Source: Verrucomicrobiales bacterium
GTDB lineage: Bacteria; Verrucomicrobiota; Verrucomicrobiia; Verrucomicrobiales; DEV007
Reading direction: 5' to 3'
Assembly (NCBI GenBank): GCA_028047635.1
Contig: JAOFXR010000008.1
Coordinates: 1-64,000, forward strand
Length of the DNA stretch: 64,000 nucleotides
In this document: piece by piece, positions 3,961 to 26,096 of the stretch
Layout of the letters: each line of letters begins with the position of its first letter
How positions within the stretch are numbered: position 1 is the first letter of the stretch
Made by a program: the position numbers and the translations under genes
Notes under the pieces: generated by a model
Told to the model about the DNA's origin: nothing
The model's database searches: none
The model's input: the letters and a program-made list of their open reading frames with translations, nothing else

Positions 3961-4803
3961 TCAAGAGGAAGCCGTTTTGCGGCAGTCGTCGCAGTATTCT
4001 TCTCCCTCTGCTGAGACTCGGAACTCGCGCTGAGGATGAGTCTTCTCAGTGGCTCCGCAGCTTTCACACTCGTGGAAAGCATCCGATTCGCTCACTTGTC
4101 CGGCTTCGAAGCGATGGCGACGAACGGCTAACTCAGCGCCCTCGCGCCACGAATGAATGAAGCTGGGCACAAAAGTGAGGAGAAAGGGTGCCATGCCTAC
4201 AATAAGGATGATAGCCATGAGCACAGGCGAGGAGCTACCCAGGACGGCGAGGAGCAAGAAGGTCGCGTTTACGTAACCGAGCCATTTAGCTTTGATCGGA
4301 ATGATGCCGAACAGGTGGATGACCTGATTGGGGAAAAGTGAGGCAAAAGCGAGAAACACGATCGAATAAAAGAGCATGTTTAGAAAGCTAACGACGCCTC
4401 CAGCCCAGGGGAGGAGGCCCGCAAGAGTGATCAGAACGATGCTGGAAACGACGTAGAGAGTCACCCTGAATGAGCCCCAATGCCCTTCAAGTGAATCGCT
4501 GATAAAGAACATGAACAGCGCAGTGATGATGACGAAAATAACATTTTCGGTGCGGGGAACCAGCACCCAGCTAAAGATTCTCCAGACCTCACCGGAAAAA
4601 ATGGCTTCCTGATTGAACTCGATCCAATTCAGAAATTCTGGAGAAAAAGAGGCCAGCGCCCACGTCATCACCTGAAAGCCTGCAATCCAACGCAAGAGGT
4701 GAGGAAATGCGAGGTTTCCAACGCGCCGTTCCAGCGAATTGACAATCTGATTTCCCTTTTCGTAGATCATTGGGGAAGGTGAAGGGGAATTGGGGGATTT
4801 CAA
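3961..4803 (-). CDS. rhomboid-like polytopic membrane protein lacking the protease serine, with C-terminal zinc ribbon
   Basis: A 280-residue protein with five to six predicted spans. The segment GEVWRIFSWVLVP near residue 71, followed by a span and GHWGSFRVTLYVVSS, matches the N-terminal half of the rhomboid fold. The catalytic GxSG is absent: the corresponding stretch reads GGVVSFLNMLFYS, and I see no matching catalytic His. It therefore looks like an inactive rhomboid relative. The soluble C-terminus contains CESCG (about 243-247) and CDDC (about 273-276), a likely four-Cys zinc ribbon. The start could also be Met12 at 4770. It is transcribed divergently from gcvT. Confidence 0.75.
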   Translation of the reverse strand: MKSPNSPSPSPMIYEKGNQIVNSLERRVGNLAFPHLLRWIAGFQVMTWALASFSPEFLNWIEFNQEAIFSGEVWRIFSWVLVPRTENVIFVIITALFMFFISDSLEGHWGSFRVTLYVVSSIVLITLAGLLPWAGGVVSFLNMLFYSIVFLAFASLFPNQVIHLFGIIPIKAKWLGYVNATFLLLAVLGSSSPVLMAIILIVGMAPFLLTFVPSFIHSWREGAELAVRRHRFEAGQVSESDAFHECESCGATEKTHPQREFRVSAEGEEYCDDCRKTASS

Positions 4804-4869: not shown

Positions 4870-5931
4870 ATGCTTCGCTCTCCGCTGCACGACAAACATC
4901 TTGAACTTGGTGCGCGAATTGTTCCCTTCGCCGGCTGGGAAATGCCGATTCAGTATGCGGGAATTGTGGCTGAGCATCACTCTGTTCGGAATGAGGTCGG
5001 TGTTTTTGATATTTCTCACATGGGTGAGCTGGAGATTGCAGGAAAGGAAGCAGAGTCTTTTCTTAATCGGCTTCTGACCAACGATGTATCAGCCCTTTCA
5101 GACAATGAAGGGCAATACACGTTGATGTTAAATGACGAAGGAGGCGTGATTGATGACCTCATTCTCTATCGACTTGATCACGATCGTTATTTCCTCGTCG
5201 TGAATGCCTCGAAGATTGAAGAGGATGTCGCCTGGATCAGTTCACAGTTGGTTCCGGATATTTCACTCACTGATCACAGTGAAGTGTATGGCGGTATTGC
5301 GGTGCAGGGACCCGAAGCCATTGCCTTGTGGGAGTCGCTCGAGCCCGAATTGCCTTTGCCGGAGCGAAATGGGATTAGTGAATCTGCTGATGGAACGATT
5401 CTTTGCCGGACTGGCTACACCGGGGAAGATGGATTTGAGCTTTTCGATTCGGTGGATCGCATCGACGACTGGTTTGCCCGAATCATCGAGGCGGGGGCGA
5501 CGCCCTGCGGCCTCGGAGCGCGGGATACCTTGAGGCTGGAGAAAGGGTATCCTCTCAACGGTTCGGATTTGGATGAAACGCATACGCCGCACGAAGCCGG
5601 GCTTGGTTTTTTTGTGAAATTAGAGAAGGTCGCCGGATTTATCGGAAGTGAAGCACTCGCCGCACAAAAAGAGAAAGGCTTACCAAGTCGACTCGTGGCA
5701 CTGCGCTTGTCGGGCAAGGCTCCGCCGCTTCGACAAGGTTACGAGGTGTCTGATCCTTCCTCGGGAGCAATTCTTGGAACGCTCTGCAGTGGCTCGCTCT
5801 CACCTACTCTCGGAGTGGGAATTGGTATGGCTTATCTGCCGGTTTCCTTTGCTGCGGTCGGCAACCATTTCTCAATCTTAATCCGTGGTCGCGAGTTTCC
5901 CGCCGAGATCGTGAAAAAGCCATTTGTGTAA
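4870..5931 (+). CDS. gcvT: glycine cleavage system T protein, aminomethyltransferase
   Basis: GcvT transfers the methylene group from the aminomethyl-lipoyl arm of GcvH to tetrahydrofolate, releasing ammonia. The protein opens with LHDKHLELGARIVPFAGWEMP, split here as LHDKHLELGARIV and PFAGWEMP. It has FDISHMGE near residue 48 and GLGARDTLRLEKGYPLNG near residue 215, all typical of the folate-binding domain, and a C-terminal GcvT barrel domain. Length is 353 residues. I chose ATG 4870 because the family starts a few residues before this block; an upstream TTG at 4837 would add 11 residues. gcvH and gcvP follow in the same direction. No glycine riboswitch is apparent in the short upstream region. 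Confidence 0.96.
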   Translation: MLRSPLHDKHLELGARIVPFAGWEMPIQYAGIVAEHHSVRNEVGVFDISHMGELEIAGKEAESFLNRLLTNDVSALSDNEGQYTLMLNDEGGVIDDLILYRLDHDRYFLVVNASKIEEDVAWISSQLVPDISLTDHSEVYGGIAVQGPEAIALWESLEPELPLPERNGISESADGTILCRTGYTGEDGFELFDSVDRIDDWFARIIEAGATPCGLGARDTLRLEKGYPLNGSDLDETHTPHEAGLGFFVKLEKVAGFIGSEALAAQKEKGLPSRLVALRLSGKAPPLRQGYEVSDPSSGAILGTLCSGSLSPTLGVGIGMAYLPVSFAAVGNHFSILIRGREFPAEIVKKPFV

Positions 5932-5987
5932 GAATTAATACTTTGGTGGTTATTTGAAAATTTAAATCATGTTCTTTTCCTGATTCA

Positions 5988-6368
5988 ATGAACGTTCCTG
6001 AAAATCTCCATTACGCTGAGTCCCATGAGTGGGTCAATCCGGAAAATTTCGAAGCCGCTCCCATTGGCATTAGTGATCACGCCCAGGCGGAGCTGAGCGA
6101 CGTCGTCTACCTCGAGCTTCCTGAAGTGGGCAAGGTGATTGCGAAAGGGGATTCCATCGCAGTGATCGAGTCGGTCAAGGCTGCCAATGATATTTATTCT
6201 CCTGTCAGCGGTGAGATTGTTGAGGTAAACGAGGCCCTCGTCGAAGCGCCCGAGCCAATCAATGCCGATCCATACGTGACCGGCTGGATGGTCAAAATTA
6301 AATTGTCTGATACCAGTGAGATCGAGGGACTTCTCGATTCGGCTGCGTATCAAAAAATTCTTTCGTGA
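5988..6368 (+). CDS. gcvH: glycine cleavage system H protein
   Basis: Lipoyl carrier of the glycine cleavage complex. The protein has 126 residues, the normal size. The lipoylated lysine is Lys64 within [13 protein letters not shown]. Other hallmarks are the start region (HYAESHEWV), [21 protein letters not shown] and the C-terminal [11 protein letters not shown]. It lies 56 bases after gcvT and ends in TGA two bases before the likely gcvP start, so translation of the two is probably coupled. Confidence 0.97.
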
Positions 6369-24003: not shown

Positions 24004-24789
24004 TTAGGTAAGCTTCAGTGCTGATTCGACGGACGCTTCGTCGTGCACGATGGCGTTGAGCGCAGCGGCGATTTTGGCAGGCTCGGCATGCTGCCAGACG
24101 TTACGTCCCACGGCGATTCCAGAGGCTCCTCCGTCGATTGCTTTTTTCACCATGGTGAGAAGGGCTTCGTCGTCTCCCATCGTGCAGCCACCGAGAATGA
24201 TCACGGGAACGGGGCAGGCATCGACGATGGCTTTAAAATCGTCAGCGCTGGCTCCGGTGGGGAAAGCGGTTTTGACGACGTCGGCACCGAGTTCTGCTCC
24301 GGCGCGAACGGTGAAGCCAATGTTCTCAACGGTGTAATCGTCGGCACGACCGATGCTGAAAGGAAGGGCTTCGAGAATGACCGGAATGTCGGTGTCGAGG
24401 CTTTCCCCGACCAGCTCGGCGACTTCGCGAGTGATACCGACTTCGTTGGCGTGATGCGTGTAGAGCATGTTCATCATTCCGTGCGCGCCAACGGAGAGAG
24501 CTTCATCTGCGCCATAGAGGCGGTAGCTGCCTTCGTCCATGTTGTCGCCGTAAACGGGCTTGTAGCAATCGGTTCTCAGGCAGATGCCTTTTCCTTCGAG
24601 CGCATCTGCCGCAGCGAGAGCGATTCCAAGGTTTACGACGTAGCCATCGACAATAGGGTTAAGTGCTTCGATCAACCCGATTGGGTCCTCGAGTCCCGGC
24701 ACAGGAATCGCCGTTCCGTGGTCGATTGGGAGGATGACGGTGCGGCCATCTGATTGGAAAAAACGGGATAAATTCGATTCACGATCCAT
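24004..24789 (-). CDS. class I aldolase of the FbaB/LacD/LsrF type
   Basis: TIM-barrel aldolase using a Schiff-base lysine, here Lys173 in DVVKTAFPTG. Other motifs are VILPIDHGTAIPVPGLEDP at the N-terminus, VILEALPFS, VIILGGCTMGDDEALL and GASGIAVGRNVWQH, the phosphate-binding end. ATG 24789 (MDRESNLSRFF) is preferred, as the 15 residues before it do not fit the family. Members include class I fructose-bisphosphate aldolases and the autoinducer-2 enzyme LsrF. Without neighbours of a known pathway I cannot choose. It is 25 bases upstream of the radical SAM gene. Confidence 0.88.
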   Translation of the reverse strand: MDRESNLSRFFQSDGRTVILPIDHGTAIPVPGLEDPIGLIEALNPIVDGYVVNLGIALAAADALEGKGICLRTDCYKPVYGDNMDEGSYRLYGADEALSVGAHGMMNMLYTHHANEVGITREVAELVGESLDTDIPVILEALPFSIGRADDYTVENIGFTVRAGAELGADVVKTAFPTGASADDFKAIVDACPVPVIILGGCTMGDDEALLTMVKKAIDGGASGIAVGRNVWQHAEPAKIAAALNAIVHDEASVESALKLT

Positions 24790-24851
24790 AGGGGCTAATG
24801 GAACGTGGGATAGGCAATTAATCAAGCGACGCAAAGGCGAATTCGTGTGTC

Positions 24852-25748
24852 CTATTCGGAGGAAGAGGCGGGAAGCGCGACCTTCAGGTAGGGGCTCACT
24901 TTTTTCAGCGTGACAGGACCAATCCCCCGAACATTCTCGATCTCTGCGACCGTTTTGAAGGGGCGCATCCTAATCGCCGCATCGGCGAGTGATTCGCGGA
25001 GGCCGGTGCTGACGAGTTCTTCGAGGGAGGCGGTGTTGAGGTCAATGGGCGTCTCGGGAGGTTTGATAGCGAGCGCGTCGTCGATTGCTTCAAGGCCTCG
25101 CATTTCATCGCGCTCTTCCTTTCGCATTTCGACGATGGCTTCAGGATTGCTAATGCTCCACGCGCCCTTTTTTCGGATCGCGGCAGCCAGTTCGATGTCT
25201 GACAATAGCGCGTCCTGTTCGTCACGGGGTCTGCCATCGGGCATTTCTCTTCCGACACCGAAGGCTCGCGCATATCCCGTCGTTACAAGAAGCTGAGCGA
25301 GATCTTTTCCCTCTGAGGTGGTGATAAAGCAATAATATCTGGGCTTTCCTGATCGTCCGCGTGCGTCAGCAAAAGAGGTGTGGATCGTAAAGGGCTTGCT
25401 CAGTTGCTCATTGGTAAAAGTTTTTGCCTTGAGGCCAAAATCATGTGCCTTCCGAAAATCGTTCAGCCCAAAATAGCGGGATTGTTCGCGCAGCCTTCGC
25501 TTGTCAGACGTAGTGGAAATCCCCGTTTCTATGCAATCAACGTAATAAAGCCGGAAGACCTTTTTACTTCCCTCCGGCATCTCCACCTCAAACGAATCGC
25601 CATCTGACCAGTCGTTTTCGACAAGGGTGCAGCCTTCGAAGGTCTCGAGCGAATCCGCCGCGTGAACGGACACTGCGAGAGCTAGCCCAAGGCCTGTTGC
25701 TGCGATCCATTTCAAATAGTTAACGAACTCCGGGGAAGCTTTCGACAT
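24852..25748 (-). CDS. secreted SNase-like nuclease fused to a helix-hairpin-helix domain
   Basis: A signal peptide (LKWIAATGLGLALAVSVHA) leads into a staphylococcal-nuclease-like (TNase) fold at about residues 36-195, with DGDSFEVEMPEG and VFRLYYVDCIET, DFGLKAKTFTNEQL and FADARGRSGKPRYYCFI. An acidic/basic linker is followed by a ComEA-type helix-hairpin-helix domain at about 228-292 (IDLNTASLEELVSTG, IENVRGIGPVTLKKV) that binds DNA non-specifically. The combination suggests an extracytoplasmic DNase with its own DNA clamp. Its start codon lies inside the end of the upstream repeat-protein gene (29-base overlap), so the two are probably translated together. Confidence 0.85.
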   Translation of the reverse strand: MSKASPEFVNYLKWIAATGLGLALAVSVHAADSLETFEGCTLVENDWSDGDSFEVEMPEGSKKVFRLYYVDCIETGISTTSDKRRLREQSRYFGLNDFRKAHDFGLKAKTFTNEQLSKPFTIHTSFADARGRSGKPRYYCFITTSEGKDLAQLLVTTGYARAFGVGREMPDGRPRDEQDALLSDIELAAAIRKKGAWSISNPEAIVEMRKEERDEMRGLEAIDDALAIKPPETPIDLNTASLEELVSTGLRESLADAAIRMRPFKTVAEIENVRGIGPVTLKKVSPYLKVALPASSSE

Positions 25749-26043
25749 ACTTGACCTTAAAATCAGGAAAGCTGTCTACAATCTGTATTTTGAAATCGGG
25801 GAAACTTTCTACGATTTGCCATTTCCCGGCGGCGTTCGGGAAACTGCTAACGCACTTCACGTGAACGTCGGCGAATGATTTTACGATTTTGACCCGGTAG
25901 TCGGGAAAACTGGTCACGAACTGGATACGGCCTCGAACTTTACTGAGATCGTCGGGACAGTCGGCGTTGAGACTTGGCAGGCTGCACAGGAAAAGAAAAC
26001 TGATCACTACGATGATCGTCAACGGGCTCGAGAAATGATTCAT
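25720..26043 (-). CDS. small exported protein of six 11-residue SFPD repeats
   Basis: ATG 26043 gives a signal peptide (ITIIVVISFLFLC-type core, ending SLNA) and a mature protein starting DCPDDL. The rest is six tandem units of about 11 residues: RIQFVTSFPDY, RVKIVKSFADV, HVKCVSSFPNAAG, KWQIVESFPDF, KIQIVDSFPDF, KVKYVESFPGV. The consensus is [KR]-hydrophobic-[KQ]-x-V-x-S-F-P-D-aromatic. Such short beta-strand repeats suggest a small solenoid or sheet stack. I do not recognise a named family, although similar short repeats occur in other bacteria. It overlaps the start of the nuclease gene. Confidence 0.75.
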   Translation of the reverse strand: MNHFSSPLTIIVVISFLFLCSLPSLNADCPDDLSKVRGRIQFVTSFPDYRVKIVKSFADVHVKCVSSFPNAAGKWQIVESFPDFKIQIVDSFPDFKVKYVESFPGVR

Positions 26044-26096
26044 TGGCGGCATGTTCGTTCGACGAACGTTTGGCAACGAATATGCGACGCCGTCGG

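Follow-up and report, generated by a model that had tools for sequence, protein, structure and literature searches.

The window analysed here, a 64,000-nucleotide stretch of a Verrucomicrobiales bacterium genome (contig JAOFXR010000008.1), carries on its minus strand a short gene for an apparently exported protein built largely of repeats, which overlaps the gene of a nuclease. The features of the locus are the following.

24004..24834, minus strand: DeoC/LacD-type aldolase, the next gene downstream of the nuclease.
24852..25748, minus strand: exported SNase + HHH_3 nuclease, the repeat gene's lineage-specific transcription-unit partner, overlapping it by 29 bases.
25720..26052, minus strand: exported six-unit repeat protein of the Q9PR55 family (ATG at 26052 or 26043, stop at 25720-25722).
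25963..26052, minus strand: signal-peptide-like N-terminus, residues 1-30, called by eye, with cleavage expected after LNA.
25897..25929, minus strand: unit 1, RIQFVTSFPDY.
25864..25896, minus strand: unit 2, RVKIVKSFADV.
25825..25863, minus strand: unit 3, HVKCVSSFPNAAG, 13 residues, with the central loop preceding the conserved GxW.
25792..25824, minus strand: unit 4, KWQIVESFPDF.
25759..25791, minus strand: unit 5, KIQIVDSFPDF, whose Gln is present in 61 of 63 relatives.
25723..25758, minus strand: unit 6, KVKYVESFPGVR, with the C-terminal conserved FPG.

Read from the ATG at 26043 the repeat gene has 107 codons, and from the in-frame ATG at 26052 (MPPMNHF...) it encodes 110 residues; the nearest relative (L001) has a methionine matching the latter start. 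The units, of the type KIQIVESFPDF, begin at residues 42, 53, 64, 77, 88 and 99. When the protein is compared with itself, a lag of 11 gives 26 matching residues, whereas 10,000 shuffles never gave more than 16 at any lag. Between units, 4-9 of 11 residues and 42-70% of the bases are identical, which points to old repeats held under selection and to no recent duplication, and the six units are absent from the output of Tandem Repeats Finder. The first-pass annotation had proposed, at 25720-26043 on the minus strand, an exported protein consisting of six near-identical 11-residue units: the reading frame is confirmed by its conservation at 78 genome loci and so is not a chance product, export agrees with the signal-like N-terminus seen by eye and with predicted leaders in most relatives, and the units do fill nearly the whole mature part (68 of about 80 residues), but at 4-9 shared residues they are not near-identical, and the general length of 11 does not extend to the third.

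The 78 loci, all in genome contigs, represent at least ten phyla. With the centre genome counted in each case, the gene was found in 19 of the 33 genomes of the window's genus, in 8 of 387 genomes of its own phylum, and in 11 of 345, 6 of 398 and 29 of 247 genomes of the phyla of loci L037, L009 and L030, respectively; three plasmid records (two of Leptospira weilii and one of Burkholderia) also carry it. On a tree of 96 rows, built from few columns, omitting L060 and L063 and leaving 45 of its 87 inner branches open, the phyla are interleaved (25 label changes against a minimum of 11), and the window copy falls inside a starred set of 26 rows drawn from Verrucomicrobiota, Pseudomonadota and four viral contigs. 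Several genomes hold more than one copy: a Bacteroidales locus (L013) has two in tandem on the plus strand (4228-4698 and 5830-6261), two genomes of the window's class (G197 and G347) have three and four divergent paralogues, and two of its genus (L163 in G014 and L164 in G031) have truncated second copies that are probably decaying.

A hydrophobic leader was recognised by a simple hydrophobicity rule at 68 of the 78 genome loci and at 17 of 19 viral loci, and the rule-negative members L001, L010, L024, L053 and L061 appear leader-like by eye. Members lacking any leader include L014, L020, L077, L078, L099 and L100, so export is not universal in the family.

The architecture of the mature protein is nearly invariant. 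The spacing from the first GK to the last FPG is 65 residues in 61 of 63 aligned relatives, divided in 59 of them into 35 residues to the GxW and 30 beyond it and in two further ones otherwise but with the sum preserved; the last two, which by sequence are L077 and L078, resemble Q9PR55. No member with more than six units occurs among the loci fetched, apparent counts of seven having been traced to a loose pattern. V16, F30, D32, D56, F65 and D67 (mature-protein numbering) are invariant in the 63 relatives, and G46, W48 and Q60 nearly so; these are the positions of the repeat itself, and no catalytic-looking set of polar residues was found among the conserved positions. A cysteine pair, one residue at the N-terminus and one before the GxW, is present in full in 33 relatives, by one member in 8 and not at all in 22 (Fisher p 2e-9 for co-occurrence, computed as if the 63 were independent, with kinship ignored), which suggests that roughly half the family has an extra disulfide; the window protein has no cysteine before the GxW.

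Such constancy bears on the suggestion that short beta repeats of this kind might assemble into a sheet or polymer. The beta repeats themselves stand, as six predicted strands. In repeat polymers the number of copies is usually variable, and the spacing fixed in 61 of the 63 relatives argues for one closed unit and against a growing polymer. A structural polymer or functional amyloid would be consistent with a small exported protein of six beta units; given that neither unit number nor spacing varies among those 61 relatives, and that all amyloid rows in the Foldseek search had E > 3, we consider it highly improbable.

What the closed unit may look like is indicated by a solved relative, UU089.1/Q9PR55 of Ureaplasma (PDB 8iwa, 8iwb, 8iwc, 8jrm and 8w68). 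The window protein matches 8iwa_A by phmmer at E 8.1e-12, and a profile of the 63 relatives searched against PDB sequences matches UU089.1/Q9PR55 at E 3.6e-20, with no other match up to E 1. An AlphaFold2 model made from the window protein and 62 relatives has six strands (mean pLDDT 89.4, pTM 0.73). Searched with Foldseek it matched only Q9PR55 entries at E < 0.001, with a poor superposition (TM 0.35, rmsd 10) that is perhaps due to a slip in repeat register, and VIA-align ranked Q9PR55 first (Z 7.9, 2.5 A over 67 of 80 residues). The two proteins have homologous sequences, Q9PR55 is the best structural match of the window model, and a six-unit beta layout with a lengthened central loop is common to both; as modelled, the window protein has the Q9PR55 fold and adds to a known fold family. 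It differs in its export-type leader, its conserved GxW and its C-terminal FPG unit, ahead of which the aligned region of Q9PR55 stops.

The single chain of Q9PR55 forms a 7_1 knot, which was predicted in PMC9278004 and later confirmed (PMC13352647 and PMC11223836). Its 112-residue homologue P73136 (48% identity, similar structure) is predicted by Brems et al. to form a 5_1 knot instead (PMC9278004), so knot type may vary in the family. By homology, the chain of the window protein would carry a torus knot of type 7_1 or 5_1.

The overlap with the nuclease gene, which the first-pass annotation had taken as a sign of joint function, is real. Among the 19 genomes of the genus that bear the repeat gene, the nuclease lies directly behind it with an overlap of 26-35 bases in nine (the window's own, G007, G008, G010, G013, G015, G017, G026 and G030), the length being reckoned by projecting residue 1 of the window nuclease, even where the alignment begins later. 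Nine others have no nuclease within the flank fetched, and in G019 an intact repeat gene adjoins a nuclease reduced to an HHH remnant. A close relative of the nuclease occurs without the repeat gene in G006, and both genes are present and unlinked in G005 and G012. The annotation's proposed check, a search for homologues and their neighbours in other genomes, found the window's nuclease adjacent at 6 of the 78 loci, all in Verrucomicrobiales; by sequence these six are some of the genus genomes and so are no independent evidence. Within the nuclease gene, a short imperfect tandem duplication of 27 bases lies in the HHH region (window positions 24986-25039).

Retention of the overlap in nine of 19 genomes makes local translational coupling plausible, and this much of the proposed joint function stands; none of the 78 loci that lie outside the lineage shows the pairing. 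A partnership in which the repeat protein, co-translated from the overlapping gene, serves the nuclease as inhibitor, chaperone or anchor would draw on that retention and on the apparent export of both proteins, but the pairing is inconsistent both within the genus and across the family, the orthologues can be unlinked or occur singly, and an exported nuclease would presumably need no cytoplasmic inhibitor. A dedicated holder or inhibitor of the nuclease is a poor fit to this distribution. We therefore judge inhibition unlikely and a nuclease partner of any of these kinds quite improbable, and infer that the overlap couples expression within an operon layout local to one genus, with no conserved protein pair involved.

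Nor does another gene take the nuclease's place across the family. Where the nuclease is missing the aldolase may adjoin the repeat gene, as in L003 and L010, in which it lies directly behind. BLAST clusters of 842 ORFs from the 78 loci contain only lineage synteny or generic families, together with ORFs that look like frames antisense to the repeat gene itself. In the matches listed, each Pfam family accounts for at most three of 93 flanking genes, which were called by a simple codon score at 48 of the 78 loci, and the PADLOC and PHROGs tallies of the same genes likewise have at most three members per family among the matches listed; PD-T4-6 models match one flanking gene each. In the window, Rfam and tRNA scans returned no matches, and a promoter and terminator scan stayed at or under chance level.

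Our preferred reading, to which we assign a probability of roughly 60%, is that the repeat gene encodes an independent, exported accessory protein with the knotted fold of the Q9PR55 family and that its overlap with the nuclease gene is merely local. Under this proposal the secreted protein would be a compact, knotted domain, its six 11-residue beta units closed into a single Q9PR55-type (7_1-knot) fold. Knots have been associated with stability and resistance to degradation (PMC11223836), and a 7_1 or 5_1 torus knot could give a periplasmic or extracellular binding module of great stability and resistance to breakdown, with K/Q-bearing strands and variable loops forming its contact surface. 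The protein would act alone, as an accessory of the envelope or extracellular space, and its benefit would be portable enough for pick-up by unrelated prophages.

Phage carriage is indeed a feature of the family. All 63 aligned relatives match phrog_6462, a phage family of unknown function to which the window protein also belongs by profile match (E 5.9e-24, residues 2-79); the window copy differs from that setting in being chromosomal, and no phage genes were found among the flanking genes scanned. The gene is encoded on 19 IMG/VR contigs. A check for PHROGs hallmarks, made on five of them, found terminase and portal genes beside it in L099, terminase and endolysin in L101, terminase and an endolysin-like gene in L104, and tape measure and baseplate hub in both L108 and L117; L100 encodes the same protein as L099, and L102, L103, L105 and L106 are putative phage contigs. 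A further nine contigs (L107 and L109-L116) make up one starred clade, and in the four examined (L107, L109, L112 and L116) the gene lies among tail-type genes whose order resembles that in an annotated region of a Leptospira weilii plasmid; there the gene is flanked by tail genes on one side and by a baseplate J gene on the other, and lies on the strand of the tail operon. The viral label changes at least seven times on the tree, three of these changes being forced by starred branches. The family gene is carried by prophages of at least five kinds. A tblastn search of 50,697 phage records gave zero matches, so the family must be rare or divergent in isolated phages. On viral contig L105 the gene lies near DUF262- and HsdM-like restriction genes, recognised by eye, and L106 encodes a near copy of the L105 protein.

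That prophages have acquired the gene repeatedly suggests that lysogens profit from it, and phage exclusion is the most testable form of such a benefit. The exported knotted domain might then be a lysogenic conversion factor that shields the envelope of its carrier from superinfection or a similar threat, with the chromosomal copies domesticated. This would agree with the position of the gene in or beside structural modules, with leaders in all but two viral copies, with at least three separate viral placements on the tree, and with its orientation, which opposes the structural genes nearby in L099, L101, L104 and L117 and part of those in L108. Set against it are the lack of any PADLOC-DB family for the window protein (two families match one of the 63 relatives each, at noise-level E values of 0.0089 and 0.039), the absence of enrichment for defence genes among the 93 chromosomal neighbours, the empty search of phage records, and the Leptospira copy, whose strand is compatible with a role in the virion or its assembly. 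We hold this alternative to be tentative and rather unlikely.

The family also appears to have a distant relation in Pfam DUF6150 (PF19647), a name absent from the literature searched. DUF6150 proteins resemble the repeat family in having six units, a central GxW and export, and differ in their 13-residue period and NQAYAD/YESQAD turns. At locus L034 a family member is immediately preceded by a gene (5347-5685, plus strand) that matches DUF6150 at E 2.2e-31 and whose product has the same six-unit plan around a central GKW with a period of 13 residues; it is likely to be a distant paralogue of the adjoining gene. Profile comparison by hhalign of the 63 relatives with 8 DUF6150 rows gave E 2.3e-4 and a probability of 45% with GKW in register, phrog_6462 matches two of the eight rows (best E 5.8e-5), and a paralogue at L166 matches the family profile at 3.3e-9 and DUF6150 weakly (0.001, under the DUF6150 cut-off). 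The window protein itself has no match to DUF6150 up to E 1 and falls below the Pfam gathering score, DUF6150 has no convincing match in the PDB (best E 0.029), and a structure predicted from two sequences only has a pLDDT of 37. On these sequence comparisons, common descent of DUF6150 and the Q9PR55 family, with DUF6150 as a distant branch, is likely but not proven. A 239-residue ORF on the minus strand of L214 (G481) has about five 13-residue YEAD units, neither leader nor GxW, and after the units a hydrophobic stretch and, by eye, an apparently SH3-like end; it is possibly a membrane-anchored variant of DUF6150.

A more far-reaching proposal would make the 7_1-knot protein the prototype of a phage-spread family of knotted domains that are exported and protect the envelope (for example by superinfection exclusion), DUF6150 forming its second branch; stability conferred by the knot, and by the likely extra disulfide of about half the members, would have been selected. 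We regard it as unlikely, and the independent accessory protein remains the reading that we prefer.

In the literature searched, the 7_1 knot is represented only by a single solved protein, that of Ureaplasma, and by a predicted homologue, and no printed account was found of the wide spread of the family, its mostly exported state, its carriage by phages or its probable kinship with DUF6150, most subscription papers lying outside the search. The Q9PR55 family, that of the most complicated protein knot known, occurs in many bacteria and in several temperate phages. A solved fold is now linked to phrog_6462 and probably also to DUF6150, neither of which has an assigned function. With its dozens of divergent natural members, the family could be used to test how complex protein knots of this kind fold, whether they need to fold after secretion, and what purpose they serve.
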